Below, piece after piece: positions 28,142 through 63,729 of a stretch of DNA of 64,000 bases. This DNA is from Cupriavidus sp. U2 (GTDB taxonomy: Bacteria > Pseudomonadota > Gammaproteobacteria > Burkholderiales > Burkholderiaceae). The stretch's first letter is position 1. Each line of letters starts with the position of its first letter. The stretch covers positions 1 to 64,000 of the forward strand of contig NZ_RCOG02000019.1 in assembly GCF_009663685.2 (NCBI RefSeq), given 5' to 3'. A program made the position numbers and the translations under genes. The notes under the pieces are model-generated. The model saw nothing but the letters and a program-made list of their open reading frames with translations, searched no databases and was not told the DNA's origin.

Positions 28142-28164
28142 TTGTGTTGTCTCCCTTTTGATGT

Positions 28165-29033: not shown

Positions 29034-29042
29034 CGGGGGCTC

Positions 29043-30227
29043 CTACTGACGCTCGTACAGCGTCACCACGCAGGCGCCGCCAAGGCCAAGGTTGTGTTGC
29101 AGCGCCAGTCGCGCGCCTGCCACCTGCCGGTCCTGGGCCTGGCCACGCAGTTGCCACACCAGTTCGGCGCATTGCGCCAGGCCCGTAGCGCCAAGCGGAT
29201 GCCCCTTCGACAGCAGGCCGCCGGATGGATTGGTCACCACGCGGCCGCCATACGTGTTGTCGCCGTCGAGGATGAATTTCTCGGCGGTGCCTTCGGGCGT
29301 CAGGCCAAGCCCTTCATACGTGATCAGCTCGTTGGCGGTAAAGCAGTCGTGCAACTCCACCACGTCGATGTCGGTGGGCGCCACGCCCGATGCCTCGTAC
29401 ACGGCCTGCGCGGCGGCCCGCGTCATGTCGTAGCCCACCACCTTGCGCATGTCGCCTTCATCGAACGTGCTGTTGCGGTCGGTGGTCATCGACTGGGCGC
29501 GAATCGCCACGCGCGTATCCAGGCCGTGCCGCTTCGCGAAGTCTTCGGAGCACACGATGGCCGCCGCCGCGCCACAGGTGGGCGGGCAGCATTGCAGGCG
29601 CGTCAGCGGGTCGAACACGGTCGGCGACGCCATCACCTCTTCCAGCGTGACCGTATTGCGGAACACCGCGAACGGATTGCGGGCAGCGTGCTGGCGCGCC
29701 TTGACCGAGATGCGGCCGAACGTATCGGGCCGGATGTCGTATTCCTTGATGTAGTCGCGGCCTGCGCCGCCGAAGAACTGTGCTGCACGCGGCGCGGCTT
29801 CATCAAAACCCTGGATGGCCTGCATGGCATCGACAAAGCGGGCCATCGGCGACGGACGGTCGGTATAGGCGCCCTTCAACGCACCGGGCACCATCTGCTC
29901 GAAGCCCACCGCGATGGCACACTCGATGGCGCCGCTGGCCACCGCCTGGCGCGCCAGGAACAACGCCGTCGATCCGGTGGCGCAGTTGTTGTTGACGTTG
30001 ATGACCGGGATGCCGGTCAGCCCAACGCCGTAGATGGCGGCCTGGCCGGCCGTGGAGTCGCCGTACACATAGCCCACGTAGGCCTGCTCCACCAGCGCGT
30101 AATCGACGCGGGCATCGGCCAGCGCCGCGCGAGCCGCGTTGGCACCCATGATCGGGTAGTCATCGCTGGCACCGGCCTTGGTGAACGGAATCATGCCGAC
30201 GCCTGCAACCAACACTTTCCTGCTCAT
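29043..30227 (-). CDS. Thiolase, SCP2/SCPx-type acetyl-CoA acetyltransferase
   Basis: This enzyme cleaves 3-ketoacyl-CoA with CoA to release acetyl-CoA or propionyl-CoA. The 394-residue protein has the nucleophilic Cys82 in NNNCATGS, the VELHDCF motif of SCP2-type thiolases, and GLLSKGHPLGATG with the C-terminal histidine. The motifs are complete, so it should be active, in contrast to the cysteine-free relative at 44.2 kb. It is the second gene of the operon, 66 bp after the ligase, and supplies the last step of the beta-oxidation turn. Confidence 0.92.
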   Translation of the reverse strand: MSRKVLVAGVGMIPFTKAGASDDYPIMGANAARAALADARVDYALVEQAYVGYVYGDSTAGQAAIYGVGLTGIPVINVNNNCATGSTALFLARQAVASGAIECAIAVGFEQMVPGALKGAYTDRPSPMARFVDAMQAIQGFDEAAPRAAQFFGGAGRDYIKEYDIRPDTFGRISVKARQHAARNPFAVFRNTVTLEEVMASPTVFDPLTRLQCCPPTCGAAAAIVCSEDFAKRHGLDTRVAIRAQSMTTDRNSTFDEGDMRKVVGYDMTRAAAQAVYEASGVAPTDIDVVELHDCFTANELITYEGLGLTPEGTAEKFILDGDNTYGGRVVTNPSGGLLSKGHPLGATGLAQCAELVWQLRGQAQDRQVAGARLALQHNLGLGGACVVTLYERQ

Positions 30228-30293
30228 GTTCGTTTCCTTGAAGATTGGAGATTCGTGAAACCGGGGGAATCGGGGAAATCGGGTAAAAGCGGT

Positions 30294-31853
30294 TCAGCTC
30301 ACCTGACGTGCCTGTCCCTGCCAGTACTGCTCGCGCAGATCGCGCTTGAGGATCTTTCCGGCGGCCGACAGCGGCAGCGCCTGCCGGAACTCGAAACTCT
30401 TGGGGCACTTGTAGCTGGCCAGCGCCGCACGACAGTGCTCGCGCAACGCCACGTCGGTGGGCGACATTCCGGCGCGCGGCACCACCACCGCATGCACGGC
30501 CTCGCCCCAGCGTTCGTCGGGAATGCCGATCACCGCGCAGCTGGCCACCTCCGGATGCAGCGACAGCACGCTCTCCACTTCTGCCGAATAGACGTTCTCG
30601 CCGCCAGTGACGATCATGTCCTTGAGCCGGTCGACGATGAACAGGTAGCCGTCGTCGTCCATGTAGCCGCCATCGCCGGTGTAGAGCCAGCCGTCGCGCA
30701 GCGCCTGCGCGGTCTCCTGCGGGCGGTTCCAGTAGCCGCGCGTGATATTGGCGCCGCGCACGATGAGCTCGCCCACGCGATGACGCGGCAGCTCGTTACC
30801 CTGCGGATCGACGATGCGCATCGTCACCCCGAAGCCGGCACGCCCCGCAGAGCGATACAGGCCGCTGGCGCGGCCCGCCGGGCCATGGTTTTCGGGGGGA
30901 TTGACGCTGATGACCGGCGACGCCTCGGTCATGCCATAGGCGTGATAGAACGCGATGTCCGGCATGGCCGCCAGGGCGCGGTCCAGCACCCCGGCCGCAA
31001 TCGGCGAGGCGCCGTAGTAGATGCGCTGCAGGCTCGACAGGTCGTGGTCGCCAAAGGACGGATCGTCGAGCACGGCCTGCAGCATCGTCGGCACCATCAT
31101 CAGTTCCTCGATGCGCTCTTGCTCGATGGTCTGCAGCACCGCCGCCGGGGCAAAGCCCGGATGGATCACCTGCACGTCGCCGGCCACGATATGCCCGACA
31201 GCCCGCGCCATCGCAGCGGTGTGGAACAGCGGCGCCACATGCAGCGACACGAAGGTGCCGTGCCCGGTGCGAAACTCGGCCATGCGCGAGACCGCCGATG
31301 CCCAGAGATTCAGATGCGACTGCATCACGCCCTTGGGCTTGCCGGTGGTGCCGCCCGTGTACATGATCGTGGCCAGATCCTCGCCGCCACGGAACACATC
31401 GGCCACCGGCCCGGCCCCGGCGATCAGCGCCTCGTAGTCGAGCATGCCGTCGGGCACTTCGCGCTCGCCGGCGTAGATCACACGCGGCGGCCGCCTGGCC
31501 GCGGCCACGATGCCGGCCACCATCGGCACGAACTGGTCGTCGACGATCAGGATGCCGGTATCGCAATCGTCCAGCGAATACACGATCTCCGGCACGCTCC
31601 AACGAATATTGACCGGATTCAGCACGCCGCCGCCCCACCACACCGCCAGCATGTATTCGATATAGCGGTCCGAGTTCAGCGCCAGCATGCCCACGCGATC
31701 ATCGGGCGCCATGCCCAGCGCCCGCAGCGCACCGGCCAGCCGCGCCACGCGGTCATGCAATGCCCGGAACGTACGGGTGCGGCCGCCAAAAACGGTGGCA
31801 CGGCTGTCCGGCGTCTGCTGCATGCAGCGATGCAGCCCCTGCGTCAGATACAT
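30294..31853 (-). CDS. Acyl-CoA synthetase (class I adenylate-forming)
   Basis: This 519-residue ligase is the first gene of the six-gene beta-oxidation operon and so should activate the entering acid. The ANL motifs are MYTGGTTGKPKG, YGMTEASPV, TGDGGYMDDDGYLFIVDRLKDM and the C-terminal lysine in SAAGKILKRDL. It resembles medium/long-chain fatty acyl-CoA ligases of the FadD3/FadD13 style, but the acid is unknown. The intergenic region upstream, shared with the divergent CaiB-type gene, carries two copies of a palindromic operator. Confidence 0.9.
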   Translation of the reverse strand: MYLTQGLHRCMQQTPDSRATVFGGRTRTFRALHDRVARLAGALRALGMAPDDRVGMLALNSDRYIEYMLAVWWGGGVLNPVNIRWSVPEIVYSLDDCDTGILIVDDQFVPMVAGIVAAARRPPRVIYAGEREVPDGMLDYEALIAGAGPVADVFRGGEDLATIMYTGGTTGKPKGVMQSHLNLWASAVSRMAEFRTGHGTFVSLHVAPLFHTAAMARAVGHIVAGDVQVIHPGFAPAAVLQTIEQERIEELMMVPTMLQAVLDDPSFGDHDLSSLQRIYYGASPIAAGVLDRALAAMPDIAFYHAYGMTEASPVISVNPPENHGPAGRASGLYRSAGRAGFGVTMRIVDPQGNELPRHRVGELIVRGANITRGYWNRPQETAQALRDGWLYTGDGGYMDDDGYLFIVDRLKDMIVTGGENVYSAEVESVLSLHPEVASCAVIGIPDERWGEAVHAVVVPRAGMSPTDVALREHCRAALASYKCPKSFEFRQALPLSAAGKILKRDLREQYWQGQARQVS

Positions 31854-35372: not shown

Positions 35373-35538
35373 CCTAGCCCGCCCCCCGCGGCGCGCCGTT
35401 CCGCCCCGGCGAAGTACCGCTTTCCCGATGACGAATTGCGCGGCCCCGTGGCTGCCCATACACTGCGACGAGCCGGCATCCGTGTGACTGCGGGGTCGGC
35501 GCCACTCCGAAATCCACTCTGCAAAGGACTTGAGCGAG

Positions 35539-37071
35539 ATGCCGCAGGACCGAGCCATCGCGAATCGCATCAGCGACATTCCCCGCCATTGGGCAGCCCA
35601 TGCGCCCGACCACGTGGCCGTGCATGAAGGCGAGCGCACGGTGAGCTTTGCGCAGCTCTGGGAAGGCGTCGGGCTGGCGCGGCAGTATCTGGAGGACCAG
35701 GGCGTCGGCACCGGAGACCGGGTCATGATCACCGGCGAAAATTGCCTGGCGGTCATCACGCTGGTCTTTGCGTTGTCCGAACTGGGCGCCTGGCCGGTGG
35801 TGACCAACGCCCGGCTGACGGCGCGCGAGATCGAGGAAATCCGTGCACACTGCACACCTCGCTTGATGCTGTTCACGCACGCCGCCTCCCCCGATGCGCT
35901 GCGCCATGGCCTGCGCTACCGCGCCCGCGAGATCGCCCCGCCCGGGCTGGGGCCGCTGATGGCTGCCGATGTGGACGCGCGCAGCGAGCGCGAGCCGCAG
36001 GCGCTGGCGCACGAGGTGGCCGCGCTGATCTACACGTCGGGCACCACGGGCCAGCCCAAGGGCGTGATGGTCACGCATCGTGGCCTGCTGCACTATGCGC
36101 GGGTCACGGCCGACACCCGCAGGATCGGGCCGGGCGACTGCGCCTATGCAGTGATGCCAATGTCCCATATCTTCGGGCTCGCCACGCTGCTGCTGGCTAC
36201 CTTCCAGGGCGGCGGCAGCCTGTACCTGGTGGCCCGGTTCAATGTCACCGACGCCTGCGCCGCGCTGCAACGCGACGCGATCTCCATCCTGCAGGGCGTG
36301 CCGGCCATGTTCAGCCGCATCCTGGTGCACCTGCAGAAGCACGGCATCGCCACGCTGCACCCCAAACGGCTGCGCTATCTCTATACCGGCGGCGGCCCGC
36401 TGGAGCCCACGCTCAAGCGCAACGTCGAAGCCGTCTTCGGTCAGCCGCTGCACCATGGCTATGGCATGACCGAATACGCGGGTTCGTTGTTCATCACCCG
36501 CATGGACCGCCCGCGCAGCGACTGCTCGGCCGGCGAGATTGTCGAAGGGGCCGAACTGCGCATCGTGGATGCCAACGGCGAAACGGTGCCACCGGGCACG
36601 GCTGGCGAGCTATGGGTGAAAGGCCCCGGCGTCATGCGCGGCTACTATCGGGACCCCGTCCAGACGGCGGAGGCCCTGCGCCCCGACGGCTGGCTCAACA
36701 CTGGCGATATCGGCCGGCTGGGGCCCGATGGCGCGCTGTATATCGTCGGGCGCACGCGCGATCTGATCATCCGCTCGGGCTTCAGCGTCTATCCGATCGA
36801 GGTGGAATCGGTCATCAACACACACCCGTCGGTGCGGATGTCCGCCGTGGTTGGCCGGCCCGCCGCCGATGGCAACGAGGAGATCGTGGCGTTCGTGGAG
36901 TTGCGCGAGGGCGAGACCTTCGATGCCGCCGAACTGCACGCCTATCTTGCCGAGCGGCTGTCGCCGTACAAGCGGCCCGCGCAGATCGTGCGCGTACCGG
37001 CCATTCCCACTACTGCCAGCGGCAAGCTGCACAAGCACCAGTTGCGCGGCATCGTCGCCGAGATGGCCTAG
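35539..37071 (+). CDS. Acyl-CoA synthetase (class I adenylate-forming)
   Basis: The 510-residue product has the ANL motifs YTSGTTGQPKGVM, YGMTEYAGS, NTGDIGRLGPDGALYIVGRTRDLIIRSGF and the C-terminal TASGKLHKHQL with the catalytic lysine. The N-terminus is shortened and simple, as in small-acid and aryl-CoA ligases. The ATG at 35539 has AAAGGA ten bases upstream; a TTG at 35530 is the alternative. It ends the CaiB-Bug-Bug unit and is closely similar in style to the ligase at 40056-41585, sharing the motif order GYGxxEYAGS and SGFxVYPxEVE, so the two may act on related acids. Confidence 0.9.
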   Translation: MPQDRAIANRISDIPRHWAAHAPDHVAVHEGERTVSFAQLWEGVGLARQYLEDQGVGTGDRVMITGENCLAVITLVFALSELGAWPVVTNARLTAREIEEIRAHCTPRLMLFTHAASPDALRHGLRYRAREIAPPGLGPLMAADVDARSEREPQALAHEVAALIYTSGTTGQPKGVMVTHRGLLHYARVTADTRRIGPGDCAYAVMPMSHIFGLATLLLATFQGGGSLYLVARFNVTDACAALQRDAISILQGVPAMFSRILVHLQKHGIATLHPKRLRYLYTGGGPLEPTLKRNVEAVFGQPLHHGYGMTEYAGSLFITRMDRPRSDCSAGEIVEGAELRIVDANGETVPPGTAGELWVKGPGVMRGYYRDPVQTAEALRPDGWLNTGDIGRLGPDGALYIVGRTRDLIIRSGFSVYPIEVESVINTHPSVRMSAVVGRPAADGNEEIVAFVELREGETFDAAELHAYLAERLSPYKRPAQIVRVPAIPTTASGKLHKHQLRGIVAEMA

Positions 37072-37113: not shown

Positions 37114-38016
37114 TCACGCGGGGTTGCCGGTGCCGTCTTCCACCAGCAGGTCCACCAGCTTGCGCGCGAAGACCGGCAGCGCGTCCAGGTCCGCCACGCA
37201 GATCTGCAGCTTGCGTTCGGCCCAGTCGTCCTCGATCTGCACGATATTCAGCGCCATGGTCTGCGCATGGCGGCGCGCGGTGCTCTCCGGCAGCACGCCG
37301 ATGCCGACATTGGCCTCGATCATCCGGCCCGCCGTCTCGAAATTGCTGACCTGGATGCGCCAGTGCAACTGGCGCTGCAGGTCGGAGGCGGCGCGTTTCA
37401 GGAAGTTGTGGATCGCGCTTTCCTCGGGCAGGCCGATGAAGTCGTAGTCCAGCGTCTCGACAAACCGCACGCGCTTGCGCTGGGCCAGCGGGTGGCTCAG
37501 CGCCGTGGCCAGCACCAGGCGGTCCAGCCGGTACGGCATCACCTCCAGCCCGTCCATGTTGACGCCGCTGGCGGCGATGCCGATATCGACCATGCCTTCC
37601 TGCACGGCCCGCACGATGTCGGGGCTGAGCCGCTCGCGGATATCGACGGTCACGTCGGGATGATTGACCAGGTACGTACGCAGCACCCCCGGCAGGAACT
37701 CGCTCATGGCCGTGGTGTTGGCGAACACCCGCACATGCCCCTTGATGCCGGACGCGTACTCCTGCAGGTCGCCGCTGAGCTGTTCGATCTGCCGCAGCAC
37801 CCGGCGCGCGTGGGCCAGCAGCGTCTCGCCGGCGGGCGTGACCTTGACGCCCTGGCTGCTGCGGCTCAGCAGCTTGACGCCCACCTGCTCTTCCAGGTTC
37901 TTGATGCGCGTGCTGGCCGCCGGCAGCGACAGGTGGCAACGTTCTGCACCGCGGGTCAGGCTGCTGGCTTCCGCAATATGCGTGAAGAGATTCAGATCGA
38001 CCAGATCGAAGCGCAT
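37114..38016 (-). CDS. LysR family transcriptional regulator
   Basis: The 300-residue regulator has an N-terminal winged helix (DLNLFTHIAEASSLTRGAERCHLSLPAASTRIKNLEEQVGVKLLSR) and a periplasmic-binding-protein-like effector domain from about residue 90. LysR proteins usually activate a divergent gene and repress their own. Here the divergent gene encodes an enoyl-CoA hydratase/isomerase homologue, and a symmetrical TCTCG-N7-CGAGA site lies between them. The effector could be the acid or CoA ester handled by the surrounding catabolic genes, but nothing in the sequence identifies it. Confidence 0.92.
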   Translation of the reverse strand: MRFDLVDLNLFTHIAEASSLTRGAERCHLSLPAASTRIKNLEEQVGVKLLSRSSQGVKVTPAGETLLAHARRVLRQIEQLSGDLQEYASGIKGHVRVFANTTAMSEFLPGVLRTYLVNHPDVTVDIRERLSPDIVRAVQEGMVDIGIAASGVNMDGLEVMPYRLDRLVLATALSHPLAQRKRVRFVETLDYDFIGLPEESAIHNFLKRAASDLQRQLHWRIQVSNFETAGRMIEANVGIGVLPESTARRHAQTMALNIVQIEDDWAERKLQICVADLDALPVFARKLVDLLVEDGTGNPA

Positions 38017-38089: not shown

Positions 38090-38188
38090 GGCCTTCACTG
38101 CCGGCGAATGCCGGATTCAAAACATGCAAATAGCCGCGCGGCCGCGCATCGGTCAAGCTGTGCCATCGAACCCTCATGGAGACACCCG

Positions 38189-38983
38189 ATGGCAGAAGAA
38201 CAGACCCTGCTGGTGGACATTGCCGACGGCATTGCCACGCTGACGCTGAACCGCCCCCAGAACAAGAACGCACTGAACGGTCCGATGCGCGACGCCCTGC
38301 GCGAAGCCGTGCAGCAGATCCGCGCCGATCGTACGGTGCGTGCCGTGGTGCTGCGCGGCGCCGGCACCGACTTCTGCTCCGGCGGCGATATCCGCGCGAT
38401 GAACGTCACCGCCGCCGACGCCGGGCGCAATCGCATGGACGACCTGCACGGCTGGATCGCCCTGCTGGTCGATCTGGACCGCCCGGTCGTGGCCGCAGTG
38501 GATGGCGTGGCGTACGGCGCCGGCTTCAGCCTGGCATTGCTGGCCGATTTCATCGTGGCCACGCCGCGTGCGCGCTTTTGCATGCCGTTCATGAAGGTCG
38601 GCCTGGTGCCCGATTGCGGCGCACTGTACACGCTGCCGCGCGTGGTGGGCATGGCACGCGCCCGGGACCTGGTCTTCAGCGCGCGCGAAGTCGGCGCTGA
38701 GGAAGCCCGGCAGATTGGCGCCGTGTTCGAGATCGTCGAACAGGACCAGCTTCACGTACGCGCCGGGCAGCTGGCACGCGGACTGGCCGGGGCGTCGCCG
38801 ACGGCGTTCGCGCTGACCAAGCGGGCGCTGAACCAGTCGAACGGCGCAGACGTGCGCGCCATGCTGGAGCTGGAATCGCTCGGCCAGGGCATCGCGTTTA
38901 CCACGGACTACCACCACGAGGCCGTGCGCCGTTTCAAGGAAAAAGAGCCGCCGCTGTTCCAGTGGCCAAGTTCGGCTGCCTGA
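38189..38983 (+). CDS. Enoyl-CoA hydratase/isomerase family protein (PaaG-like active site)
   Basis: The 264-residue crotonase-fold protein has the oxyanion segments GTDFCSGGDIRAM and DGVAYGAGFSLALLADFIVA. In the active-site region MPFMKVGLVPDCGALYTLPRVVG the glutamate of classic hydratases (PEI) is replaced by Phe, and an Asp follows in VPDCG. That pattern matches PaaG-type isomerases, so it may shift a double bond rather than add water. The ATG at 38189 has GGAG about ten bases upstream. It is divergent from the LysR gene and followed by a strong hairpin, so it is probably monocistronic and LysR-controlled. Confidence 0.87.
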   Translation: MAEEQTLLVDIADGIATLTLNRPQNKNALNGPMRDALREAVQQIRADRTVRAVVLRGAGTDFCSGGDIRAMNVTAADAGRNRMDDLHGWIALLVDLDRPVVAAVDGVAYGAGFSLALLADFIVATPRARFCMPFMKVGLVPDCGALYTLPRVVGMARARDLVFSAREVGAEEARQIGAVFEIVEQDQLHVRAGQLARGLAGASPTAFALTKRALNQSNGADVRAMLELESLGQGIAFTTDYHHEAVRRFKEKEPPLFQWPSSAA

Positions 38984-39075: not shown

Positions 39076-40059
39076 TCACCCCGCCGTAATCCCCGCCGTC
39101 TGGATCACCTTGCGCCACTTCTCGATTTCGCTGTGCAGGCGCTGGCGCATCTGGTCCTGCGTGCCGGCGTCCGCTTCGGCGCCAGCCTGCAGCAGTCGCT
39201 GCTTGACGCCGGCGTCCTTCATGGCGACGTTGAAATCGGCATTGATCTTGTCGAGGATCGGCTTCGGCGTCTGGGCCGGCGCGAACAGTGCGGCCCAGGA
39301 ATAGGCTTCGTAGCCGGGCAGCCCCGATTCGGCCACGGTCGGCACGTCGGGCAACATCCCCGAACGCTTGCGGCTGGCCACGCCCAGCACCTTGATACGT
39401 CCCGACTTGATATGTTGCAGCGCGGTAGGCGCGTCACTGAACATCAGCTGCACCTGGCCGCCCAGCAGGTCATTCATGGCTGGCCCACTGCCCTTGTATG
39501 GTACGTGCTGCAGCTTGGTACCCGCTTCCATGTTGAACAGCTCGCCCGCCAGGTGCGTGCCGCCGCCATTGCCCGACGACCCGTAGGCCAGCGTGTGGCC
39601 GCTTTTGGCGTAGGCGATGAGCTCCTTGATGTTGCTGGCCGGCACCGACGGATGCGCGACGACGAACACCGGGAACATCGCGGCAAAGCTGACCGGCGCA
39701 AAGTCCTTCTCGATGTCGTACGGCAGCTTGCCCATCAGCGACGGGTTGACCGCGTGATGGATCGACCCCAGGAACAGCGTGTAGCCATCGGGGGCTTCCT
39801 TGGCGGCGATGGTGGCGCCGATGGTGCCGCCCGCGCCAGCGCGGTTGTCGATGACGATCGGTTGCTTCCAGATCTCGCCCAGCTTCTGGCTGAAGATGCG
39901 CGCGGTGCTGTCCACCGGACCGCCAGGCGGAAATGGCACGATCACGCGCACGGGCTTGGCCGGCCACGTTTCCGTGGCGAACGACGCAAACGGGTACGCC
40001 GCGGCGCCGAACAGGCCGGCGGCCAACAGGCGCCTGCGCATGGCGGACGATGGGTTCAT
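39076..40059 (-). CDS. Bug-type tripartite tricarboxylate transporter substrate-binding protein
   Basis: A third Bug receptor, 327 residues. It has a signal peptide with arginines (MRRRLLAAGLFGAAAYPFASFA) and the motifs WPAKPVRVIVPFPPGGPVDSTAR, IDNRAGAGGTIGA, APDGYTLFLGS and HVPYKGSGPAMNDLLGGQVQ. Its start overlaps the stop of the ligase gene by four bases (ATGA), so uptake receptor and ligase are translationally coupled. This strongly suggests that the bound compound is the substrate of that ligase. Confidence 0.92.
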   Translation of the reverse strand: MNPSSAMRRRLLAAGLFGAAAYPFASFATETWPAKPVRVIVPFPPGGPVDSTARIFSQKLGEIWKQPIVIDNRAGAGGTIGATIAAKEAPDGYTLFLGSIHHAVNPSLMGKLPYDIEKDFAPVSFAAMFPVFVVAHPSVPASNIKELIAYAKSGHTLAYGSSGNGGGTHLAGELFNMEAGTKLQHVPYKGSGPAMNDLLGGQVQLMFSDAPTALQHIKSGRIKVLGVASRKRSGMLPDVPTVAESGLPGYEAYSWAALFAPAQTPKPILDKINADFNVAMKDAGVKQRLLQAGAEADAGTQDQMRQRLHSEIEKWRKVIQTAGITAG

Positions 40060-41585
40060 GCTGGGTCTCCTTGGGTCGACATCGAACCGGCCTGCTCCTG
40101 CAGCACGCGCTTGAGGATCTTGCCGTTGTTATTGGTGGGCAGTTCGGCCAGCGCCACGATGCGCGCGGGCCGCTTGTACGGCGCCAGGCGGCCGCGCAGG
40201 TGGCTGCGCAACGCCTCCGGTTCCAGCGCCGCGCCGGGGCGCAATTCCACGAAGGCGACGATCTCCTCGTTGCCGTCGCCCTCGGCCACGCCCACCACGG
40301 CTGACCGCTGGATGCTCGGATGGGTGTTGAGCGCGGCCTCCACCTCGGCCGGGTAGACGTTGAAACCGGAGCGGATGATCATCTCCTTGAGGCGACCGAC
40401 CACGAACAGCGCGCCATCGGCATGCATCTCGCCGAGGTCGCCGCTGGCGTACCAGCCGCCCTCGCGCATCACCGCTTCGGTGGCCGCCGCATCGCGGAAG
40501 TAGCCTGGCATCAGCCCCCTGCCCCGCAGCCAGAGTTCGCCGCGCTGGCCCAGCGGCAAAGGCTCGCCGGTGGCGGGATCTGTCACCTGCACCTCGGCCT
40601 CGGCCACGGCGTAGCCGGCGCTGGTATCGGCGCGCTGCTCGCCCAGACGCGTCACATGGACCGATCCCGCGTATTCGGACAGGCCATAGCCATGGTGCAG
40701 CGTCAGGCCGAACGTGGCTTCCACGCGCGTCTTCAGCGACAGGTCGAGCGGACCCGCGCCGGTATAGAGATAGCGCAGCGCCGGGGCCACCGGCTGCGCG
40801 ATGCCCTGTTCCTGCAGGTAAGCCAGCAGCCGCGAGAACAGCGTGGGCGGCCCCTGCAACTGCGACACGCCGTGACGGGCCAGCGCGTCGAGCAGATCGG
40901 CGGGATCGAACTGCGGCCGCATTACCAGCTGCGCGCCGGCCAGCAGCGAACTGAGCAGCACCGTGCCCAGGCCGAAGATATGGGTCATCGGCACGAAGGC
41001 ATAGCTGCGGTCGGCAGGCCCTAGCGCGCGGGCATCGCGCGTCACTCGGGCGAAATGGATCAGTGCGTCATGCGTCAGCATCACGCCCTTGGGCTCGCCC
41101 GTGGTGCCCGATGTGAAGATCAGGGCGGCCACGTCGTCGCGCAGCGGCGCCGGCTCCTGCAGCGCATCGGCACGCACCGCCGACCGATGCACGCCCGGCA
41201 GCGCCGACGGTACGGCCCCGAAGCGTTGCGCGTGCGCGGCGGCGGCGCGCGACGCCGCGGCGGTGAAGTACACCAGCCGGGCATCGGCACGGGCGGCGAA
41301 GGCATCGATCTCGCCATCGGCCATGCGGGCATTGACGCCGCACGACCACGCGCCCACGCGGCTGCACCCCAGGATCAGCGCAGCGTGCTCGGGACAGTTC
41401 TCGGCCACCACCATCACGCGGTCACCGGGCCGCACGTCGAGTTCGCGCAGTTCCGCCTCGGCCGCGTCCGTCAGCGCGCCCAGGTCGGCAAAGCTCAGGC
41501 TGCGGCCGTCCGGCAGGTGGAGAAACGGTTGATCGGGGGCCTCGGCCAACCAATGGTCAAGCAACTCATGAATCCGGGTCGTCAC
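40056..41585 (-). CDS. Acyl-CoA synthetase (class I adenylate-forming)
   Basis: The 509-residue ligase has the motifs FTSGTTGEPKGVM, HHGYGLSEYAGS, YASGDLGEMHADGALFVVGRLKEMIIRSGF and NNNGKILKRVL with the catalytic lysine. The start is GTG at 41585 (VTTRIHELLDHWL), supported by an AAGGA site ten bases upstream; longer readings of the frame have no support. It forms a two-gene operon with the Bug receptor and is divergent from the acyl-CoA dehydrogenase operon, with which it shares a 222-bp promoter region. It may activate the acid degraded by that operon. Confidence 0.9.
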   Translation of the reverse strand: MTTRIHELLDHWLAEAPDQPFLHLPDGRSLSFADLGALTDAAEAELRELDVRPGDRVMVVAENCPEHAALILGCSRVGAWSCGVNARMADGEIDAFAARADARLVYFTAAASRAAAAHAQRFGAVPSALPGVHRSAVRADALQEPAPLRDDVAALIFTSGTTGEPKGVMLTHDALIHFARVTRDARALGPADRSYAFVPMTHIFGLGTVLLSSLLAGAQLVMRPQFDPADLLDALARHGVSQLQGPPTLFSRLLAYLQEQGIAQPVAPALRYLYTGAGPLDLSLKTRVEATFGLTLHHGYGLSEYAGSVHVTRLGEQRADTSAGYAVAEAEVQVTDPATGEPLPLGQRGELWLRGRGLMPGYFRDAAATEAVMREGGWYASGDLGEMHADGALFVVGRLKEMIIRSGFNVYPAEVEAALNTHPSIQRSAVVGVAEGDGNEEIVAFVELRPGAALEPEALRSHLRGRLAPYKRPARIVALAELPTNNNGKILKRVLQEQAGSMSTQGDPA

Positions 41586-41807
41586 GCTAGCCGTCCTTGC
41601 TGAATGCGATGAAGAGGTTCGCGCAGCATGGCGCCAAAGCCGGGCAGGCGCCATTCGTAAATCACAAGGGCCGGCTTCGCTGGCCTGAAACCGCGCTGCG
41701 GAATGCGGCGGCCGCGCATTTCGGTATCCGGAAGGCTGGATTCGGCAATCTCGAACCAGCGTGGCGTACACGCCCATAGAATCGTTTTCACTGACCGGAG
41801 ACAGTTC

Positions 41808-43001
41808 ATGGACCTGCGTTTCACAAGAGAAGAAGAAGCCTTTCGCGAGGAAGTCCGCGCCTTTGTGCAGGCCAGCCTGCCCGCCGACATCCGCGACAAG
41901 GTGCTGGGCCATCGCCGCGTGGAGAAGGACGACTATGTGCGCTGGCACCGCATCCTGCACGCCCGGGGCTGGGGGGCGCCGACGTGGCCCACCGAGTGGG
42001 GCGGCACGGGCTGGAACGCGCTGCAGCGCCTGATCTTCGAGATCGAGACCTTTCGCGCCGGCGCGCCGCGCATGCTGCCGTTCGGGCTGACGATGATCGG
42101 CCCCGTGCTGATGAAGTACGCCAGCGCCGAGCACAAGGCCCGCTTCCTGCCCCGCATCCCGACCGTGGAAGACTTCTGGTGTCAGGGCTATTCCGAGCCG
42201 GGCGCCGGCTCCGACCTGGCATCGCTGCGGACCCGCGCGGTGCGCAAGGGCGACAAGTACATCGTCAACGGTCAGAAGACCTGGACGACGATGGCCCACT
42301 TTGCCGACTGGATCTTCTGCCTCGTGCGCACGGACGCCGAGGCCAAGCCGCAGGAAGGCATCTCGATGCTGCTGATCGACATGAAGTCGCCCGGCGTGAC
42401 GGTGCGGCCGATCAAGACGCTGGACGGCGGCCATGACGTGAACGAGACCTGGTTCGAGGACGTCGAGGTGCCGGTGGAAAACCTGCTGGGCGAGGAAAAC
42501 AAGGGCTGGACCTACGCCAAGTACCTGCTGGGACACGAACGTACCGGCATTGCCGGCATCGGCCACTGCTATCGCGAGTTGCGCCAGTTGCGGCACTACG
42601 CGGCCGAGACCACCGACGGCCGGGGCCGCCCGCTGATCGAGGACCTGCGCATGCGCGACAAGATCGCCCGCGTGGAGATGGATCTGCTGGCGCTTGAAAT
42701 GCTGCTGCTGCGCGTTGCCACCCAGGCAGCCGGCACGCCCGGTCCCGAGGCGTCGATCGTCAAGATTCGCGGTTCCGAACTGCAGCAGGACATTGCGATG
42801 CTGCAGATGGAAGTGGCTGGCCCGAATGGCTGGCCGTATTCGCCGGACTGGCTGGAGCCCGGCGTGCCGCAGCCCGTGAGCGGCCCGGACTGGGCCGCGC
42901 CCGCCGCATCCACCTATTACGACATGCGCAAGACCACGATCTACGGCGGCTCGACCGAAGTCCAGAAAAACATCATCTCGAAGATGATCATCGGTTTCTA
43001 A
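41808..43001 (+). CDS. Acyl-CoA dehydrogenase, large subunit-like (FAD-motif bearing)
   Basis: The 397-residue protein starts MDLRFTREEEAFREEVRAFV and carries the FAD/substrate motif QGYSEPGAGSD (127-136), NGQKTWTTMAHFADWIFCLVRTD, and the C-terminal TIYGGSTEVQKNIISK. The GGYGY-x-EYP catalytic-base motif of homotetrameric enzymes is absent. Instead the C-terminal half has long insertions (AGPNGWPYSPDW...). This is the pattern of FadE-type subunits of heterotetrameric dehydrogenases in steroid and side-chain degradation. The next gene, 17 bp away, encodes a second, divergent dehydrogenase and is the likely partner. The start has GGAG ten bases upstream. Confidence 0.9.
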   Translation: MDLRFTREEEAFREEVRAFVQASLPADIRDKVLGHRRVEKDDYVRWHRILHARGWGAPTWPTEWGGTGWNALQRLIFEIETFRAGAPRMLPFGLTMIGPVLMKYASAEHKARFLPRIPTVEDFWCQGYSEPGAGSDLASLRTRAVRKGDKYIVNGQKTWTTMAHFADWIFCLVRTDAEAKPQEGISMLLIDMKSPGVTVRPIKTLDGGHDVNETWFEDVEVPVENLLGEENKGWTYAKYLLGHERTGIAGIGHCYRELRQLRHYAAETTDGRGRPLIEDLRMRDKIARVEMDLLALEMLLLRVATQAAGTPGPEASIVKIRGSELQQDIAMLQMEVAGPNGWPYSPDWLEPGVPQPVSGPDWAAPAASTYYDMRKTTIYGGSTEVQKNIISKMIIGF

Positions 43002-43018
43002 CGCAGGGGACGACAGGC

Positions 43019-44143
43019 ATGGATTTCACTTACAGCGAAGAACAGCAGATGCTGGCCGACAGCCTGCGCCGCTTTGTCGCATCCGAGTATTCGTTCGAAC
43101 ATCGCCGCCGCAATGCGCGCGAGCAGGGCGGCTTCGACCGCGCCACGTGGCGGCAACTGGCCGACATGGGCGTGCTGGGCTTGACCATTCCGGCGGACCA
43201 CGGCGGTTTTGGCGAGGGCCCGGCCAGCCAGGTGGTGGTGCAACGCGAACTGGGCCGCGGGCTGGTGCAGGAGCCTGTGATTCCGGCGGCCATTGCCACG
43301 GCCATCCTGGCGCACCATGCGCCGGCCGCGCAGCAGGCCGAATGGCTGCCCGCCATCGCCGATGGCAGCAAGGTGCTGGCGCTGGCCTATCTGGAACCCG
43401 CCACGCGCTATCGGCTGGACGCGGCGCAGACCGCTGCGCGCCAGCGCGAGCCGAACGGCTACGTGCTGAGCGGCGCGAAGTCGGTGGTGTGGCATGGCGG
43501 TGCGGCCGATACCTACCTGGTCTCGGCAAAGCTCGATGGCACGCTGGCGCTGTTCCTGGTCAGCCGCGACGCGCCGGGGCTGACGGTGACCGCCTACCCG
43601 ACCATCGACCGCCTGACCGGCGCGGACCTGAAGCTGACCGATGTGCCGGCCACGCTGGTCACCGTCAACGGGCTGCAGGGGCTGGAACTCGGCATCGACC
43701 ACGGCATTGCCGCGCAGTGCGCGGCGGCGGCCGGCGCGATGGAGCGGCTGATCGAGATCACCGCCGAATACCTGGGTGCGCGCAAGCAGTTCGGCAAGCC
43801 GCTGGCATCGTTCCAGGCGCTGCAGCACCGCATGGCCGACATGCTGCTGCAGAAGGAACTGGCACTGTCGATGGCCTACGTGGCCGCGCAGGGGCTGGAT
43901 GCCACCGACACCGACGAACGCCGCCGCAAGGTATCGGCCGCCAAGGTGGTCACCGCACGCGCGGCACGCTTTGTCGGCCAGCAGGCCGTGCAGCTGCATG
44001 GCGGCATGGGCATGACCGACGAACTCGAAGTTGGCGACTATTTCAAGGCGCTGGCCATGACCGATGTGCTGCTCGGCGACACCGACCTGCACATGGAACG
44101 CTACAACGCCTCCATGGCCCCTATCGCCCCCATCGCGGCCTGA
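43019..44143 (+). CDS. Acyl-CoA dehydrogenase, partner subunit with degenerate FAD motif
   Basis: The 374-residue protein has the ACAD N-terminal domain (MDFTYSEEQQMLADSLRRFV) and C-terminal helix bundle (LGARKQFGKPLASFQALQHRMADM, VQLHGGMGMTDELEVGDYFKAL). The middle FAD motif SEPGAGSD is reduced to YLEPATRY, so one FAD-binding element is lost. A glutamate is present in the TDELEV segment where the base is expected. The complementary losses in this protein and the one encoded upstream suggest an alpha2-beta2 enzyme with shared active sites, as in the ChsE pairs. It starts 17 bp after the first subunit gene. Confidence 0.88.
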   Translation: MDFTYSEEQQMLADSLRRFVASEYSFEHRRRNAREQGGFDRATWRQLADMGVLGLTIPADHGGFGEGPASQVVVQRELGRGLVQEPVIPAAIATAILAHHAPAAQQAEWLPAIADGSKVLALAYLEPATRYRLDAAQTAARQREPNGYVLSGAKSVVWHGGAADTYLVSAKLDGTLALFLVSRDAPGLTVTAYPTIDRLTGADLKLTDVPATLVTVNGLQGLELGIDHGIAAQCAAAAGAMERLIEITAEYLGARKQFGKPLASFQALQHRMADMLLQKELALSMAYVAAQGLDATDTDERRRKVSAAKVVTARAARFVGQQAVQLHGGMGMTDELEVGDYFKALAMTDVLLGDTDLHMERYNASMAPIAPIAA

Positions 44144-44177
44144 TCCGCACACCAGACATCAGAAGGAAGACACATCC

Positions 44178-45344
44178 ATGAGCATCCATGGCAAGGCATA
44201 CATCGTCGGGGCCTACGAGCACCCGACCCGCAAGGCACCGGACAAGACCGTGCCGCAACTGCACGCCGAGAGCGCCCGCGGCGCGCTGGAAGACGCCGGC
44301 CTGACGCTGGCCGACGTGGACGGCTACTTCTGCGCCGGTGACGCCCCCGGCCTGGGCATGGTCAACATGGTCGACTACCTGGGACTGAACGCGCGCCATG
44401 TGGATTCGAGCGAAATGGGCGGGTCGTCCTATATCGCGCACGTCTCGCACGCGGCGCAGGCGATTGCCGCCGGCAAGTGCAACGTGGCGCTGATCACGCT
44501 GGCCGGGCGTCCACGCTCGGAAGGCTCCAGCGGCACGCAGGCCCGCAACTGGGGCGCGAACCTGCCCGACCAGCCGTTCGAGGCGCCGTTCAGCCCCGTT
44601 ACCGTCAACCTGTACGCGATGGTGGCGCAGCGCCATATGTACGAGTTCGGCACCACGCCCGAACAGCTGGCGTGGATCAAGGTGGCCGCCTCGCATCACG
44701 CACAGCACAACCCCAACGCGATGTTGCGTGAATTGGTGACGGTCGAGGACGTACTGAACTCGCCGATGATCTCCGATCCGCTGCATCGTCTGGACTGCTG
44801 CGTGGTATCCGACGGCGGCGGTGCGCTGGTGGTGGCGCGCCCCGAGATCGCGGCGAAGCTGAACCGGCCGAAGATCAAGGTGCTGGGCGCGGGCGAACAC
44901 GTCAAGGGCCTGCTCGGCGGCCAGGTGGACCTGTCATGGTCGGCCGCACGCGTGTCCGGCGCGGCGGCCTTTGCCGAGGCTGGCGTCACCCCGTCCGATA
45001 TCCAGTACGCATCGATCTACGACAGCTTCACCATCACCGTGCTGATGCAGCTCGAAGACCTGGGCTTCTGCAAGAAAGGCGAAGGCGGCAAGTTCGTGAT
45101 GGACGGCAACCTGATCTCTGGCGTGGGCAAGCTGCCGGTCAACACCGATGGCGGCGGGCTGTGCAACAACCACCCGGCCAACCGCGGCGGCATCACCAAG
45201 GTGATCGAGGCCGTACGCCAGCTGCGCGGCGAGGCCCATCCGGCCGTGCAGGTCAAGAACTGCCAGCTTGCGCTGGCCCAGGGGACCGGCGGCTACATGG
45301 GATCGCGCCATGGCTCGGCCACCCTGATCCTGGAACGCGAATAA
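44178..45344 (+). CDS. Thiolase-like protein lacking the nucleophilic cysteine (possible Ltp2-type aldolase)
   Basis: The 388-residue protein has the SCP2-thiolase fold pattern, but the CATGS nucleophile loop is replaced by SSEMGGSS (77-84). There is no cysteine between residues 52 and 101. The HDCF motif is replaced by IYDSFT (Tyr281), and the C-terminal GHPLGATG by CNNHPANRGG. It therefore cannot be a normal thiolase. Cysteine-free thiolase homologues such as Ltp2 are retro-aldolases that need a DUF35 partner, and the next gene encodes exactly such a protein 14 bp downstream. An alternative is a ketoacyl-synthase-like or structural role. Aldol cleavage of a 3-hydroxyacyl-CoA side chain is the favoured but unproven function. 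Confidence 0.82.
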   Translation: MSIHGKAYIVGAYEHPTRKAPDKTVPQLHAESARGALEDAGLTLADVDGYFCAGDAPGLGMVNMVDYLGLNARHVDSSEMGGSSYIAHVSHAAQAIAAGKCNVALITLAGRPRSEGSSGTQARNWGANLPDQPFEAPFSPVTVNLYAMVAQRHMYEFGTTPEQLAWIKVAASHHAQHNPNAMLRELVTVEDVLNSPMISDPLHRLDCCVVSDGGGALVVARPEIAAKLNRPKIKVLGAGEHVKGLLGGQVDLSWSAARVSGAAAFAEAGVTPSDIQYASIYDSFTITVLMQLEDLGFCKKGEGGKFVMDGNLISGVGKLPVNTDGGGLCNNHPANRGGITKVIEAVRQLRGEAHPAVQVKNCQLALAQGTGGYMGSRHGSATLILERE

Positions 45345-45358
45345 GCGCGAGGCTAACC

Positions 45359-45766
45359 ATGACCACTCCCTACGTTCCCACCGTTCTCAAGTCCCCGGAC
45401 GAACTGCCCGACAACGCGCCGTTCTGGCAAGCCGCCCGCGAAGGCCGCCTGCTGGTGCGCCACTGCAAGTCGTGCGGCAAGCCCCACTGGTATCCGCGTG
45501 CGTTGTGCCCGTTCTGCATGGGCGACACCGACTGGAAGGACGCCAGCGGCCTGGGCGAGATCTACTCGTTCAGCATCACCCGCCGCGCGGGCCCCAATCC
45601 GTTCTGCATCGCCTATGTGAAGCTCGATGAAGGCGTGACCATGCTCACCCATATCGTCGACACGGACCTGGACAGCGTGCGCATCGGGCAGCGTGTGAAG
45701 GTGCGCTTTGCCGAGACCGAAGGCGGCGCACCCGTGCCCGTCTTCGCGCCGGCCGAGGCGTCCTGA
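45359..45766 (+). CDS. DUF35 zinc-ribbon/OB-fold protein
   Basis: The 135-residue protein has an N-terminal helix (DNAPFWQAAREGRLLV), a rubredoxin-like zinc ribbon with Cys36, Cys39, Cys50 and Cys53 (CKSC...CPFC), and a C-terminal OB-fold ending in VKVRFAETEGGAPVPVFAP. DUF35 proteins bind thiolase-like enzymes and channel acyl-CoA. In steroid catabolism the DUF35 domain of ChsH2 is required by the aldolase Ltp2. Here it is a stand-alone gene directly after the cysteine-free thiolase homologue and before a MaoC-type hydratase. Confidence 0.9.
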   Translation: MTTPYVPTVLKSPDELPDNAPFWQAAREGRLLVRHCKSCGKPHWYPRALCPFCMGDTDWKDASGLGEIYSFSITRRAGPNPFCIAYVKLDEGVTMLTHIVDTDLDSVRIGQRVKVRFAETEGGAPVPVFAPAEAS

Positions 45767-45778
45767 GCGGAGCAGCCG

Positions 45779-46672
45779 ATGGCCATCCACTACCAGCACC
45801 TGCGCAAGCGCGCCTTTCCCCCGGTGCGCCAGCACTACACGATGCGCGACACCATGCTGTACGCGCTGAGCCTGGGCCTGGGCAACGACCCGATGAACGC
45901 GTCGGCCCTGCCCTTCGTCTACGAAGGCACGCCGGGCGGGCTGCGCGCGCTGCCGTCTCAGGCCGTGGTACTGGGCTATCCCGGCTTCTGGGCCCGCGAG
46001 CCCGATACCGGCATCGACTGGGTCAAGCTGTTGCACGGCGAGCAGCGGCTGCGGCTGCATCGCCCGCTGCCCGCCAATGCCGAGGTGGTGGGTCATAACC
46101 GCATCACCCACCTGACCGACAAGGGCGCAGGCAAAGGCGCCATCATGGTCACCGAGCGCCGGCTGGAAACCGTGCAAGGCGAGTTGCTGGCCACCATCCA
46201 GCAAGTGTCGTTCCTGCGCGGCGACGGCGGCTACAGCACGCTCGATGGCGGCCAACCCAGCGACGAACCGCTGCCCGCACTGCGCCCGGTGCCCGAAGAC
46301 CGGCCGCCCGATTTCGTCGATACCCAGCCCACGCGCCCCGAGGCGGCGCTGCTGTACCGCCTGATGGGCGACTTCAATCCGCTGCACGCCGATCCTGCCG
46401 TGGCCGGCGCAGCCGGATTCGAGCGGCCGATCCTGCATGGCCTGGCCAGCTACGGGCTGGTGGCCCACGCATTGCTGCGGCAATGTGCGGGCCACGACCC
46501 GGCACGGCTGCGCGCGTTCGATATCCGCTTTGCCGCGCCGGTGTTCCCCGGTGAGACGCTGGTGACGGAGATCTGGCGCGACCCGCAACATGCCGGCCAG
46601 TTCCAGCTGCGCGCCAGGGTGCTGGAGCGCGACAAGGTCGTGCTCAGCCATGGCTGGGCCGAGATCGCCTGA
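45779..46672 (+). CDS. Double-hotdog MaoC family enoyl-CoA hydratase
   Basis: The 297-residue protein fuses two hotdog domains. The N-terminal half (residues 1-150) resembles the acyl-binding half of peroxisomal-type hydratase 2. The C-terminal half carries the catalytic motif MGDFNPLHADPAVAGAAGFERPILHGLASYG. It should hydrate an enoyl-CoA to the (R)-3-hydroxyacyl-CoA. The starting ATG lies 12 bp after the DUF35 gene. Position after the dehydrogenase pair and beside the thiolase-like/DUF35 pair suggests that its product is the substrate for aldol cleavage. Confidence 0.9.
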   Translation: MAIHYQHLRKRAFPPVRQHYTMRDTMLYALSLGLGNDPMNASALPFVYEGTPGGLRALPSQAVVLGYPGFWAREPDTGIDWVKLLHGEQRLRLHRPLPANAEVVGHNRITHLTDKGAGKGAIMVTERRLETVQGELLATIQQVSFLRGDGGYSTLDGGQPSDEPLPALRPVPEDRPPDFVDTQPTRPEAALLYRLMGDFNPLHADPAVAGAAGFERPILHGLASYGLVAHALLRQCAGHDPARLRAFDIRFAAPVFPGETLVTEIWRDPQHAGQFQLRARVLERDKVVLSHGWAEIA

Positions 46673-46708: not shown

Positions 46709-48001
46709 ATGACCGCTTCCAACGAACCTACCTCCGGCCTGCCGCCGCCGTCGCGGCAGACCGGCGCCCTCAGCCATCTGCGCGTACTGGACCTCTCGCG
46801 CGTGCTGGCGGGTCCATGGTGTACGCAGAACCTGGCCGACATGGGCGCCGACGTCATCAAGATCGAAAAGCCCGGCGCTGGCGACGACACCCGGCATTGG
46901 GGGCCGCCGTACCTCGATGGCGATGATGGTCCCACGCGCCAGGCCAGCTACTTCGCGGCGTGCAACCGCAACAAACGATCTGTGACCGTGGACATCGCCA
47001 CGGCCGAGGGCCAGAAGCTGGTGCGCGAACTGGCGCAGCAGAGCGACGTGGTCATCGAGAACTACAAGACCGGCAGCCTCAAGCGCTACGGGCTCGACTA
47101 CGAGACGCTCAGCGCGCTGAATCCGCGCCTGGTCTACTGCTCGATTACCGGGTTCGGCCAGACCGGTCCTTATGCCGCACGGCCCGGTTACGACCTGCTG
47201 GTGCAGGCCATGAGCGGGCTGATGAGCATCACGGGCCAGCCCGATGGCGAACCGGGCGGCGGCCCATTGCGCGTGGGCGTGGCGGTGATCGACGTGTTCA
47301 CGGGCATGTATGCCACCACGGCCATCCTTGGCGCGATCGAGGCGCGCCACCACACCGGGCGCGGCCAGCAGATCGACATCGCGCTGCTCGACGTGGCCAT
47401 GGCGGTACTGGCCAACCAGGGCGCCGGCTACCTGAACGCCGGCGTCGTGCCGACGCGGCAGGGCAATGTGCATCCGAGCGTGGTGCCATACCAGGACTTT
47501 CCGACCCGGGACGGCAACATGCTGCTGGCCATCGGCAATGACGGCCAGTTTGCGCGTTTCTGCGAGGTGGCCGATGTCGACTGGGCACGCGACGAGCGTT
47601 ACGCCACCAACAGCGCCCGCGTCGCCCATCGCGACACGCTGATTCCGATGATGTGCGATGTCACGCGCGCCAGGCCTACCCACGAATGGATCGGCCTGCT
47701 CGAGGCGGCGTCGGTGCCCTGCGGTCCGATCAACGACATCGGGCAGGCGTTCGCCGACGCGCATGTGCAGCATCGCGGGCTGCGCGTGGAGCAGTATCGC
47801 TATGCGACGTCCGACCGTCCAGAGGCCGACACCGTGAACCGGATCCGCTCCACCGCCAGTCCGCTACGATTGTCCGATACGCCGCCCACGCTGCGCCACG
47901 CGCCGCCTGCGCTGGGCCAGCACACGGACGAAGTGCTGCGCGAATGCCTGGGGCTTGGGCCGCAGGCCGTGGCGGACCTGCGCGCCAAGGGCGTGCTCTA
48001 G
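46709..48001 (+). CDS. CaiB/BaiF family (type III) CoA-transferase
   Basis: The 430-residue protein has HLRVLDLSRVLAGPWCTQNLADMGADVIKIEKPGAGDDTR, NRNKRSVTVD, YCSITGFGQTGPY and RVGVAVIDVFTGMYATTAILGAIE, in which the aspartate is the expected nucleophile. It is closest in style to formyl-CoA or succinyl-CoA:carboxylate transferases with the long C-terminal domain. The ATG at 46709 has a poor ribosome site; a TTG at 46673 directly after the hydratase stop is an alternative. It may activate the acid substrate at no ATP cost or recycle CoA from the cleavage product. Confidence 0.9.
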   Translation: MTASNEPTSGLPPPSRQTGALSHLRVLDLSRVLAGPWCTQNLADMGADVIKIEKPGAGDDTRHWGPPYLDGDDGPTRQASYFAACNRNKRSVTVDIATAEGQKLVRELAQQSDVVIENYKTGSLKRYGLDYETLSALNPRLVYCSITGFGQTGPYAARPGYDLLVQAMSGLMSITGQPDGEPGGGPLRVGVAVIDVFTGMYATTAILGAIEARHHTGRGQQIDIALLDVAMAVLANQGAGYLNAGVVPTRQGNVHPSVVPYQDFPTRDGNMLLAIGNDGQFARFCEVADVDWARDERYATNSARVAHRDTLIPMMCDVTRARPTHEWIGLLEAASVPCGPINDIGQAFADAHVQHRGLRVEQYRYATSDRPEADTVNRIRSTASPLRLSDTPPTLRHAPPALGQHTDEVLRECLGLGPQAVADLRAKGVL

Positions 48002-60971: not shown

Positions 60972-61114
60972 AGCGCGGCACACGCATCCCCCACGCCACA
61001 ACGCCCCTCCCCTGTCGGCGTCCGTCTGTCAGCCATCGCGCCATGCGCGGCACGGTTCTTGCCACACTGCACCCAGAAGCTGGGCCCGTCGCCGCCCCGG
61101 TTGGACTGGAAACG

Positions 61115-61267: not shown

Positions 61268-61464
61268 CATCTGCCGGCCGCGCAACGCATAAATGTCATA
61301 AATACAATCGATATGGGCGGAATGAAGGTAAAAACTACAATTCAGGATAGGTCTGCGCCACCTCGGGACGCCGGCCGGGGCCGCGCTGTGCCGGTGCGGA
61401 CCCTGTGCCCACCCGTCTTTGCCAATATCAAAGCCAAAGCGGCGTTGTCTGCCGCCCGTCAGCC

Positions 61465-63528: not shown

Positions 63529-63555
63529 GTGGCAAGCGCCCGCACAAGGAACGCA

Positions 63556-63723: not shown

Positions 63724-63729
63724 CCGGCC

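Follow-up and report, generated by a model that had tools for sequence, protein, structure and literature searches.

Retro-aldolases that act on coenzyme A (CoA) thioesters, built on a thiolase fold without the nucleophilic cysteine and paired with a DUF35 protein, are known from steroid and ibuprofen degradation. In the igr operon, Ltp2-ChsH2 (6ok1) acts after a heteromeric acyl-CoA dehydrogenase (ACAD) and a MaoC hydratase (PMC12502768), and in TcLtp2 Tyr294 and Tyr344 are catalytic (PMC12329534). Sal-Shy of Comamonas testosteroni (9myr) likewise combines a Cys-less fold and a catalytic Tyr with a DUF35 partner; in CtSal, Tyr302 is essential (Y302F inactive) and Cys304 is catalytic (C304S inactive; PMC12329534). 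In IpfDE of the ibuprofen plasmid pIBU218, a retro-aldolase with its DUF35 protein acts on a non-steroid; there the DUF35 is encoded alone and next to the aldolase, with CaiB and crotonase-type enoyl-CoA hydratase/isomerase (ECH) genes adjacent as well, and a dioxygenase acts before cleavage, unlike in the route proposed below (PMC9195938). The atf1-chsH4-chsE6 operon of Mycolicibacterium neoaurum also holds aldolase, stand-alone DUF35 and acyl-CoA dehydrogenase genes and serves sterol C22-C23 cleavage (PMC10398937); it is compared here by description only. We analysed a stretch of 64,000 nucleotides of Cupriavidus sp. U2 (contig NZ_RCOG02000019.1, positions 1 to 64,000; hereafter the window), in which a gene for a Cys-less thiolase-like protein and a stand-alone DUF35 gene lie between two dehydrogenase genes and a hydratase gene (41808-46672). 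As read from its genes, this is a real, well-formed catabolic cluster around a widespread clade of aldolase-like proteins of predicted function. Its core is probably a two-gene CoA-thioester retro-aldolase, which in this clade of Cupriavidus would be embedded in an operon for the breakdown of a non-steroid carboxylic acid with a branch or a ring.

A Cys-less thiolase-fold clade apart from Ltp2 and Sal

Upon alignment, we found Gly82 at the position of the nucleophilic Cys of Cys thiolases, Y281-D-S-F284 where those enzymes have HDCF or HDAF, and the His332-Pro of the thiolase GHP motif retained. The nucleophile of catabolic thiolases is therefore missing, and the protein carries the two marks of the Cys-less thiolase-fold aldolases, the Tyr of YDxF and Gly at the Cys position. 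It passes the PRK08142/NF006010 model (Table 1), whose family is named only 'thiolase domain-containing protein'. In a quick maximum-likelihood tree of 59 rows, several of whose PDB rows are printed stretches only, 5 Cys thiolases are split from 54 Cys-less rows with support 99; Tyr of YDxF and Gly at the Cys position are present in 54/54 of the latter, and HD in 5/5 of the former. The PRK08142 clade comprises 29 rows (support 100; YDSF, usually HP-x-NRGG) and forms with 4u4e and mostly-YDAF paralogs a 42-row group (support 97), whose sister is a separate 6-row group of Sal, two Ltp2 proteins, IpfD and two relatives (support 83). Finer placement is unsure because several rows are long branches. 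The YDxF Tyr shared by all Cys-less rows corresponds to the catalytic Tyr of the two steroid aldolases that have been studied. Across the 122 places surveyed below, YDSF is present in 122/122 and HPxNRGG in 118/122, and the PRK08142-type clade was found in bacteria and one haloarchaeon.

Membership in either steroid type was considered and rejected. Ltp2 has YDHF and Tyr344, whereas the Cupriavidus protein has YDSF and HP-His and falls outside the Ltp2 branch; His332 lies in the region of Tyr344, with the exact column unsure owing to a gap. Sal has YDCY with the essential Cys304, and its DUF35 partner has a C3H1 zinc finger, whereas here there is YDSF without a Cys304 equivalent, a C4 finger in the partner, and a position outside the Sal branch. 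IpfD, which is 59% identical to TcLtp2, groups with Ltp2 and has YDHF, unlike the Cupriavidus protein. The nearest solved structure, the putative thiolase 4u4e of Sphaerobacter thermophilus (44% identical), keeps YDSF and HP and has no Cys, with HPGMY in place of HPxNRGG, and no function for it was found in the literature searched. Judged by alignment, Tyr281, Ser283 and His332 make up a third residue combination beside those of Sal and Ltp2.

A preliminary description of the locus had presented the protein as a thiolase without its nucleophilic Cys, which Gly82 bears out, and as similar to Ltp2. We built an AlphaFold2 model (21 sequences; mean predicted local distance difference test, pLDDT, 77.6; predicted TM-score, pTM, 0.84), in which active-site residues are not placeable because the active-site loop is too weak. 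Foldseek ranked by E-value 4u4e (no known function), then Sal, the best match of known function, then Ltp2, and then Cys thiolases. The likeness to Ltp2 thus holds for the E-value ranking and not for the TM-scores, which are alike for thiolases. The further suggestion that the protein is of the Ltp2 kind did not survive, given the separate tree branch and the fact that IpfD, a member of the Ltp2 clade, finds nothing above 34% in the own genome.

Two further sets of Cys-less proteins were observed. A second group, mostly with YDAF and HPGMY, occurs in several genomes of the phylum (L144-L149, L152-L155, L159). The own genome also encodes a distant paralog (L142 2875-9679, G000:C8; 33% identity, YDSF, GHSG). 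Immediately after its gene come a DUF35-like gene and one for an NDP-forming acyl-CoA synthetase, and before it lie the genes of an ABC binding protein and of an IclR-like regulator (assigned partly by eye).

The DUF35 gene is the fixed partner

The stand-alone DUF35 protein has zf-ChsH2 and OB_ChsH2_C domains and a C-x2-C-x10-C-x2-C finger. We surveyed neighbourhoods at 122 loci (the best 80 of 576 confirmed contig-scan matches, 30 from genomes chosen among the matches, and 12 from annotated plasmids), some of which are the same place twice; 122 places with at least 60% identity form 54 clusters at 90%. A first neighbourhood run caught many antisense open reading frames and was replaced by label searches, whose labels were taken from the window and from 12 annotated loci and therefore cover the gene types found there only. 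A DUF35 gene lies directly downstream of the aldolase gene in 51/54 clusters with the first script and in 53/54 with the overlap limit lifted, the sole exception being L104, where it lies ~5 kb away. The four-Cys finger is kept in 52/53 DUF35 partners; its two Cys pairs are spaced by ten residues in 51 of these and by nine in one. On one haloarchaeal plasmid, two divergently placed aldolase-DUF35 pairs lie close together (L098 4352-9580).

For proximity, we compared the number of clusters with a label within 3 kb and at 3-6 kb in the 44 clusters that have 6 kb on both sides (Fisher test). The DUF35 label occurs in 41/44 within 3 kb versus 3/44 further out (p 1e-17), followed by the ligase (12/44 versus 3/44, p 0.02), TctC (13/44 versus 5/44, p 0.06) and CaiB (10/44 versus 3/44, p 0.07) labels, with ECH at 7/44 versus 11/44 (p 0.43). 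At least two ACAD genes stand within 6 kb in 9/44 clusters, six of the nine being adjacent pairs by eye. Complementary ACAD pairs occur within ~4 kb of the aldolase gene at L109, L118, L119, L129, L137, L099 and L104; L137 and L093, read separately from the cluster counts, also carry ACAD pairs. An ACAD pair thus recurs beside the aldolase in a minority of loci, and the fixed unit is aldolase plus DUF35, with partners for activation, dehydrogenation and hydration that vary. The five genes as a conserved module were accordingly rejected; since pair and hydratase are not fixed partners, we regard the five as a local assembly around a two-gene core.

The dehydrogenase pair and the hydratase

In ACADa, Glu244 (LGHERTGI) shares its alignment column with the helix-G Glu (LDYERVVL) that is the catalytic base of isovaleryl-CoA dehydrogenase, and both flavin adenine dinucleotide (FAD) motifs, RxQFG and QxxGGxG, are missing. 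ACADb has both FAD motifs (RKQFGKPLASFQ, QLHGGMG) and lacks the helix-G Glu. In this alignment the steroid enzymes 4x28 (A/D) and 6wy9/6wy8, represented by their printed stretches, divide Glu and FAD motifs in the same way; to these stretches ACADa is 35-37% and ACADb 30-32% identical. The two Cupriavidus subunits share 18% identity. This is the arrangement of ChsE-type dehydrogenases, with the Glu in one subunit and the FAD motifs in the other, and the same two-gene split is known from ChsE4-ChsE5, Tcur3481-Tcur3483 and PimC-PimD (the last compared by model score only), although ACADa and ACADb are only 30-37% identical to solved chains of this type. The best NCBIfam models for the pair are the large and small subunits of pimeloyl-CoA dehydrogenase, both below cut-off. 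In heteromeric dehydrogenases the glutamate sits in one subunit only and FAD is bound at the interface (PMC8399759). We infer that ACADa and ACADb form such a heteromer, with the Glu supplied by one subunit and the FAD motifs by the other.

The hydratase combines an MFE-2 hydratase-2 N-terminal domain with a MaoC domain bearing an intact GDFNPLH motif, and thus has the double hotdog with GDxNPLH in one half that marks MFE-2-type hydratase 2; it resembles human MFE-2 hydratase 2 (1s9c). Enzymes of this type handle branched and bulky chains. In the igr operon the hydratase is heteromeric and the DUF35 is one of its domains, and in Sal-Shy the DUF35 is fused to MaoC, whereas in Cupriavidus the DUF35 is a separate gene and the hydratase is one chain with two hotdogs. 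Alignment, domains and motifs therefore agree with the preliminary description in two respects: the dissimilar dehydrogenases with complementary motif loss as in ChsE-type enzymes, and the stand-alone DUF35 gene and double-hotdog hydratase gene that follow the thiolase-like gene.

Organisation of the locus

Reading frames and family searches confirmed five open reading frames on the same strand, separated by gaps of 17, 34, 14 and 12 bases (Table 1). Each of the five proteins has at least one Pfam domain well over cut-off, which excludes chance resemblance. A CaiB CoA-transferase gene begins 36 bases past the hydratase gene, if the ATG at 46709 is its start, and a CaiB gene also adjoins the core in L013-L017, L019 and L066. 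Upstream lies a block of ligase, Bug, ECH, LysR and ligase genes; neither this block nor the CaiB gene was part of the preliminary description. Gene by gene, the locus is 93-100% identical in the records of Ralstonia sp. 25mfcol4.1, Cupriavidus sp. D384 and C. pauculus UM1.

Table 1. Genes of the cluster and its surroundings in the window.
Feature	Coordinates	Strand	Remarks
ACADa, acyl-CoA dehydrogenase alpha-type subunit	41808..43001	+	Glu244 catalytic-type; FAD motifs lost; pimC_large 493.7 bits (cut-off 623.85); 4x28_A 208.2 bits
ACADb, acyl-CoA dehydrogenase beta-type subunit	43019..44143	+	FAD motifs kept; catalytic-type Glu lost; pimD_small 299.3 bits (cut-off 652.7); 6wy8_A 127.3 bits
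Cys-less thiolase-fold protein, predicted CoA-thioester retro-aldolase	44178..45344	+	G82, Y281-D-S-F, H332-P; NF006010/PRK08142 767 bits (cut-off 462)
Stand-alone DUF35 (zinc ribbon and OB fold), predicted aldolase partner	45359..45766	+	6ok1_B 62.8 bits
Double-hotdog MFE-2-type enoyl-CoA hydratase 2 (MaoC2)	45779..46672	+	catalytic motif intact in C-terminal half; 1s9c_A 169.5 bits
Type III (CaiB) CoA-transferase, probable substrate activation	46709..48001	+	start chosen at ATG; succinate-glutarate CoA-transferase model 490.4 bits (cut-off 750)
LIG2, divergent AMP-forming acyl-CoA ligase	40056..41600	-	start not fixed; family profile searches
Bug/TctC-type periplasmic carboxylate-binding protein	39076..40059	-	assigned by eye
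ECH, crotonase-type enoyl-CoA hydratase/isomerase	38183..38983	+	start not fixed; family profile searches
LysR-type regulator	37114..38016	-	assigned by eye
LIG1, AMP-forming acyl-CoA ligase	35530..37071	+	family profile searches

Elsewhere in the window, a second, conventional cluster lies on the minus strand at 27311-31853, 14 kb from the Cys-less thiolase-like gene. It includes an SCP2-type thiolase with intact Cys (29043-30227; 485 bits to 6hsj), beside which stand a short MaoC-like gene, a short-chain dehydrogenase/reductase (SDR) gene and a ligase-like gene (all three by eye). Ligase D- and Ku-like genes of non-homologous end joining are seen at 58266-63999 (by eye).

Distribution and co-occurrence within the genus

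Of 398 genomes sampled from the phylum, among them the own genome and its kin, 24 have a copy of at least 66% identity. Among plasmid records, 496/72,556 match at 1e-15, with 459 of the 496 below 60% identity. Many such proteins are probably named thiolase or acetyl-CoA acetyltransferase despite the lost nucleophile.

For the genus we used the 14 genomes listed among 150 of the family, with C. plantarum outside, and counted as orthologs aldolases of at least 87% and ACADa of at least 80% identity. Both are present in 10/14, neither in 3/14, ACADa alone in 1/14 and aldolase alone in 0/14 (Fisher 0.011, uncorrected for relatedness and with matchless genomes not all listed). The two lie on different contigs in 5/10 (G026, G045, G123, G138, G145), and in all three of these split genomes that were read the ACAD pair lies together with a ligase and a Bug gene. 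Among loci whose aldolase is 92-97% identical, the hydratase is absent between DUF35 and CaiB in L015 and L016, and in L019 (C. plantarum) both ACAD genes are absent from the locus and an SDR gene takes the place of the hydratase.

The substrate

To examine a steroid role, the own genome was searched with IpfD and with HsaC and KstD, the latter two taken from a Nocardia farcinica record and identified by eye. IpfD had as its best match the Cys-less protein itself (34%), HsaC a 37% match beside genes looking like a naphthalene/gentisate pathway, and KstD a 37% match around which no steroid genes were recognised by eye. These three queries found no steroid cluster in the own genome; the search extended to no further steroid genes. 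A steroid substrate was rejected upon these searches and the reading of the places found; it is unlikely, and a non-steroid one is favoured, as the preliminary description had allowed in naming a different branched compound. Its removal of a propionyl unit is not readable from the sequence. Neighbours of other copies (tricarballylate genes, protocatechuate genes, CoA-transferases, citryl-CoA lyase) were also considered as a guide to the substrate and are too mixed to name one.

The HsaC-match place (L141 724-14019, G000:C33) holds ring-hydroxylating dioxygenase, extradiol dioxygenase and gentisate-type genes and looks like naphthalene degradation (by eye). The KstD-match place (L143 2878-12078, G000:C35, near a contig end) holds flavin monooxygenase, aldehyde dehydrogenase, TetR, MFS and hydrolase-like genes (by eye), and possibly serves degradation of another ring ketone.

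Proposed route and alternative explanations

In the route that we propose, a Bug-type system would take up the carboxylic acid and a ligase or the CaiB transferase would activate it with CoA. The ACADa-ACADb heteromer would then carry out alpha,beta-dehydrogenation, the MFE-2-type hydratase would hydrate the product to a 3-hydroxyacyl-CoA, and the Cys-less protein with DUF35 would cleave this by a retro-aldol reaction to acetyl- or propionyl-CoA and an aldehyde or ketone. Tyr281 may deprotonate the beta-hydroxyl, with His332 as the acid or oxyanion-hole partner. Retro-aldol cleavage is probably the reaction because the partners in the window form a complete route to a 3-hydroxyacyl-CoA. The dehydrogenation-hydration-aldol route of the preliminary description is thus kept as the best reading, with three amendments: the aldolase is not an Ltp2 or Sal ortholog, only aldolase and DUF35 are conserved together, and the substrate is unlikely to be a steroid.

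Several observations weigh against this route. Aldolases and thiolases score alike by TM-score (0.79-0.82 against 0.81 for 7yvy), the loop 325-335 bearing His332 is modelled with pLDDT <50, and residue 283 is Ser where Sal requires Cys. In the literature found (most subscription papers being outside reach), no assay or activity is reported for any PRK08142-clade protein, and the term PRK08142 itself gave no match. Neither the ACAD label (9/44 versus 8/44, p 1) nor the MaoC2 label (3/44 versus 2/44, p 1) is enriched near the aldolase gene, and the co-occurrence count in the genus is small. Whole-genome searches found no ACADa ortholog in the C. plantarum genome of L019 (best 58%) and no MaoC2 match at 1e-20 in the L016 and L019 genomes, while the L015 genome has an unlinked hydratase copy (73%). 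Furthermore, five small genomes (~2 Mb, genus g12 of the family) carry the aldolase and have no ACADa match at 1e-80; in the three of them searched for MaoC2 none was found, and CoA-transferase genes lie nearby. Some copies have SDR and 3-oxoacid CoA-transferase genes close by, which would be compatible with a 3-oxoacyl-CoA substrate as well.

The last point bears on the idea that the protein works by non-covalent thiolysis or a retro-Claisen reaction, with a 3-oxoacyl-CoA as its substrate that the SDR would supply or that the 3-oxoacid CoA-transferases near other copies would activate. CoA-transferase genes lie directly upstream in L112 and within ~3 kb in L113 and L132, CoA-transferase-labelled or annotated genes are nearby in L100, L108 and L123, and His332-Pro of the GHP motif is retained. 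However, the nucleophilic Cys is absent, Ser283 replaces the other Cys of HDCF thiolases, every Cys-less row has Tyr in place of the HDCF/HDAF His, and CtSal, with Gly at the Cys place, was judged by its authors incapable of thiolysis (PMC12329534). The SDR label is only weakly commoner near the gene (15/44 within 3 kb versus 8/44 at 3-6 kb, p 0.14), and we consider this idea unlikely. Somewhat less unlikely, though doubtful, is that the five genes do not serve a single pathway, and that a general aldolase-DUF35 unit has come to lie between dehydrogenases and a hydratase of another beta-oxidation. The absence of MaoC2 or both ACAD genes beside near-identical aldolases, the unlinked pair and aldolase in other genomes of the genus, the missing ACAD enrichment and an Alcaligenaceae group with the aldolase-DUF35 pair beside housekeeping-looking genes (by eye) all speak for it. 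Against it, the same ACAD pair type recurs near the aldolase where ACADa is only 30-53% identical, the genes here are 12-34 bases apart, and their presence goes together within the genus.

Two readings fare worse. A synthetic role, in which the enzyme would work in the forward direction and condense or decarboxylate, draws on thiolase-fold relatives with DUF35 that include acyltransferases such as PhlABC (5m3k; for the role of DUF35, PMC12329534), but the neighbours read mostly as catabolic (ligases, dehydrogenases, Bug proteins), which makes it very improbable. A genuine module for C3 or C5 side chains of steroids, of the igr or sal-shy type, would share the enzyme classes and the dehydrogenase identities given above; the placement of the aldolase outside the Sal/Ltp2 branch, the own-genome searches with IpfD, HsaC and KstD, and the pimeloyl-CoA dehydrogenase models as best fit leave it hardly credible.

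Implications

Beyond this locus, the YDSF/HP-x-NRGG clade may, as a tentative reading that we hold at slightly below even, represent a third family of retro-aldolases for CoA thioesters, in which a catalytic Tyr-His pair would take the place of Tyr-Tyr or Tyr-Cys, acting in bacteria and haloarchaea on ordinary non-steroid branched or polycarboxylic acids. If members of the clade are aldolases, many catabolic maps would change, and they would offer new biocatalysts that break or form C-C bonds in non-steroid CoA esters. If the third-family reading is true, cleaving side chains by a retro-aldol reaction would be a catabolic strategy in general use, and the steroid enzymes would form one specialised branch within it.

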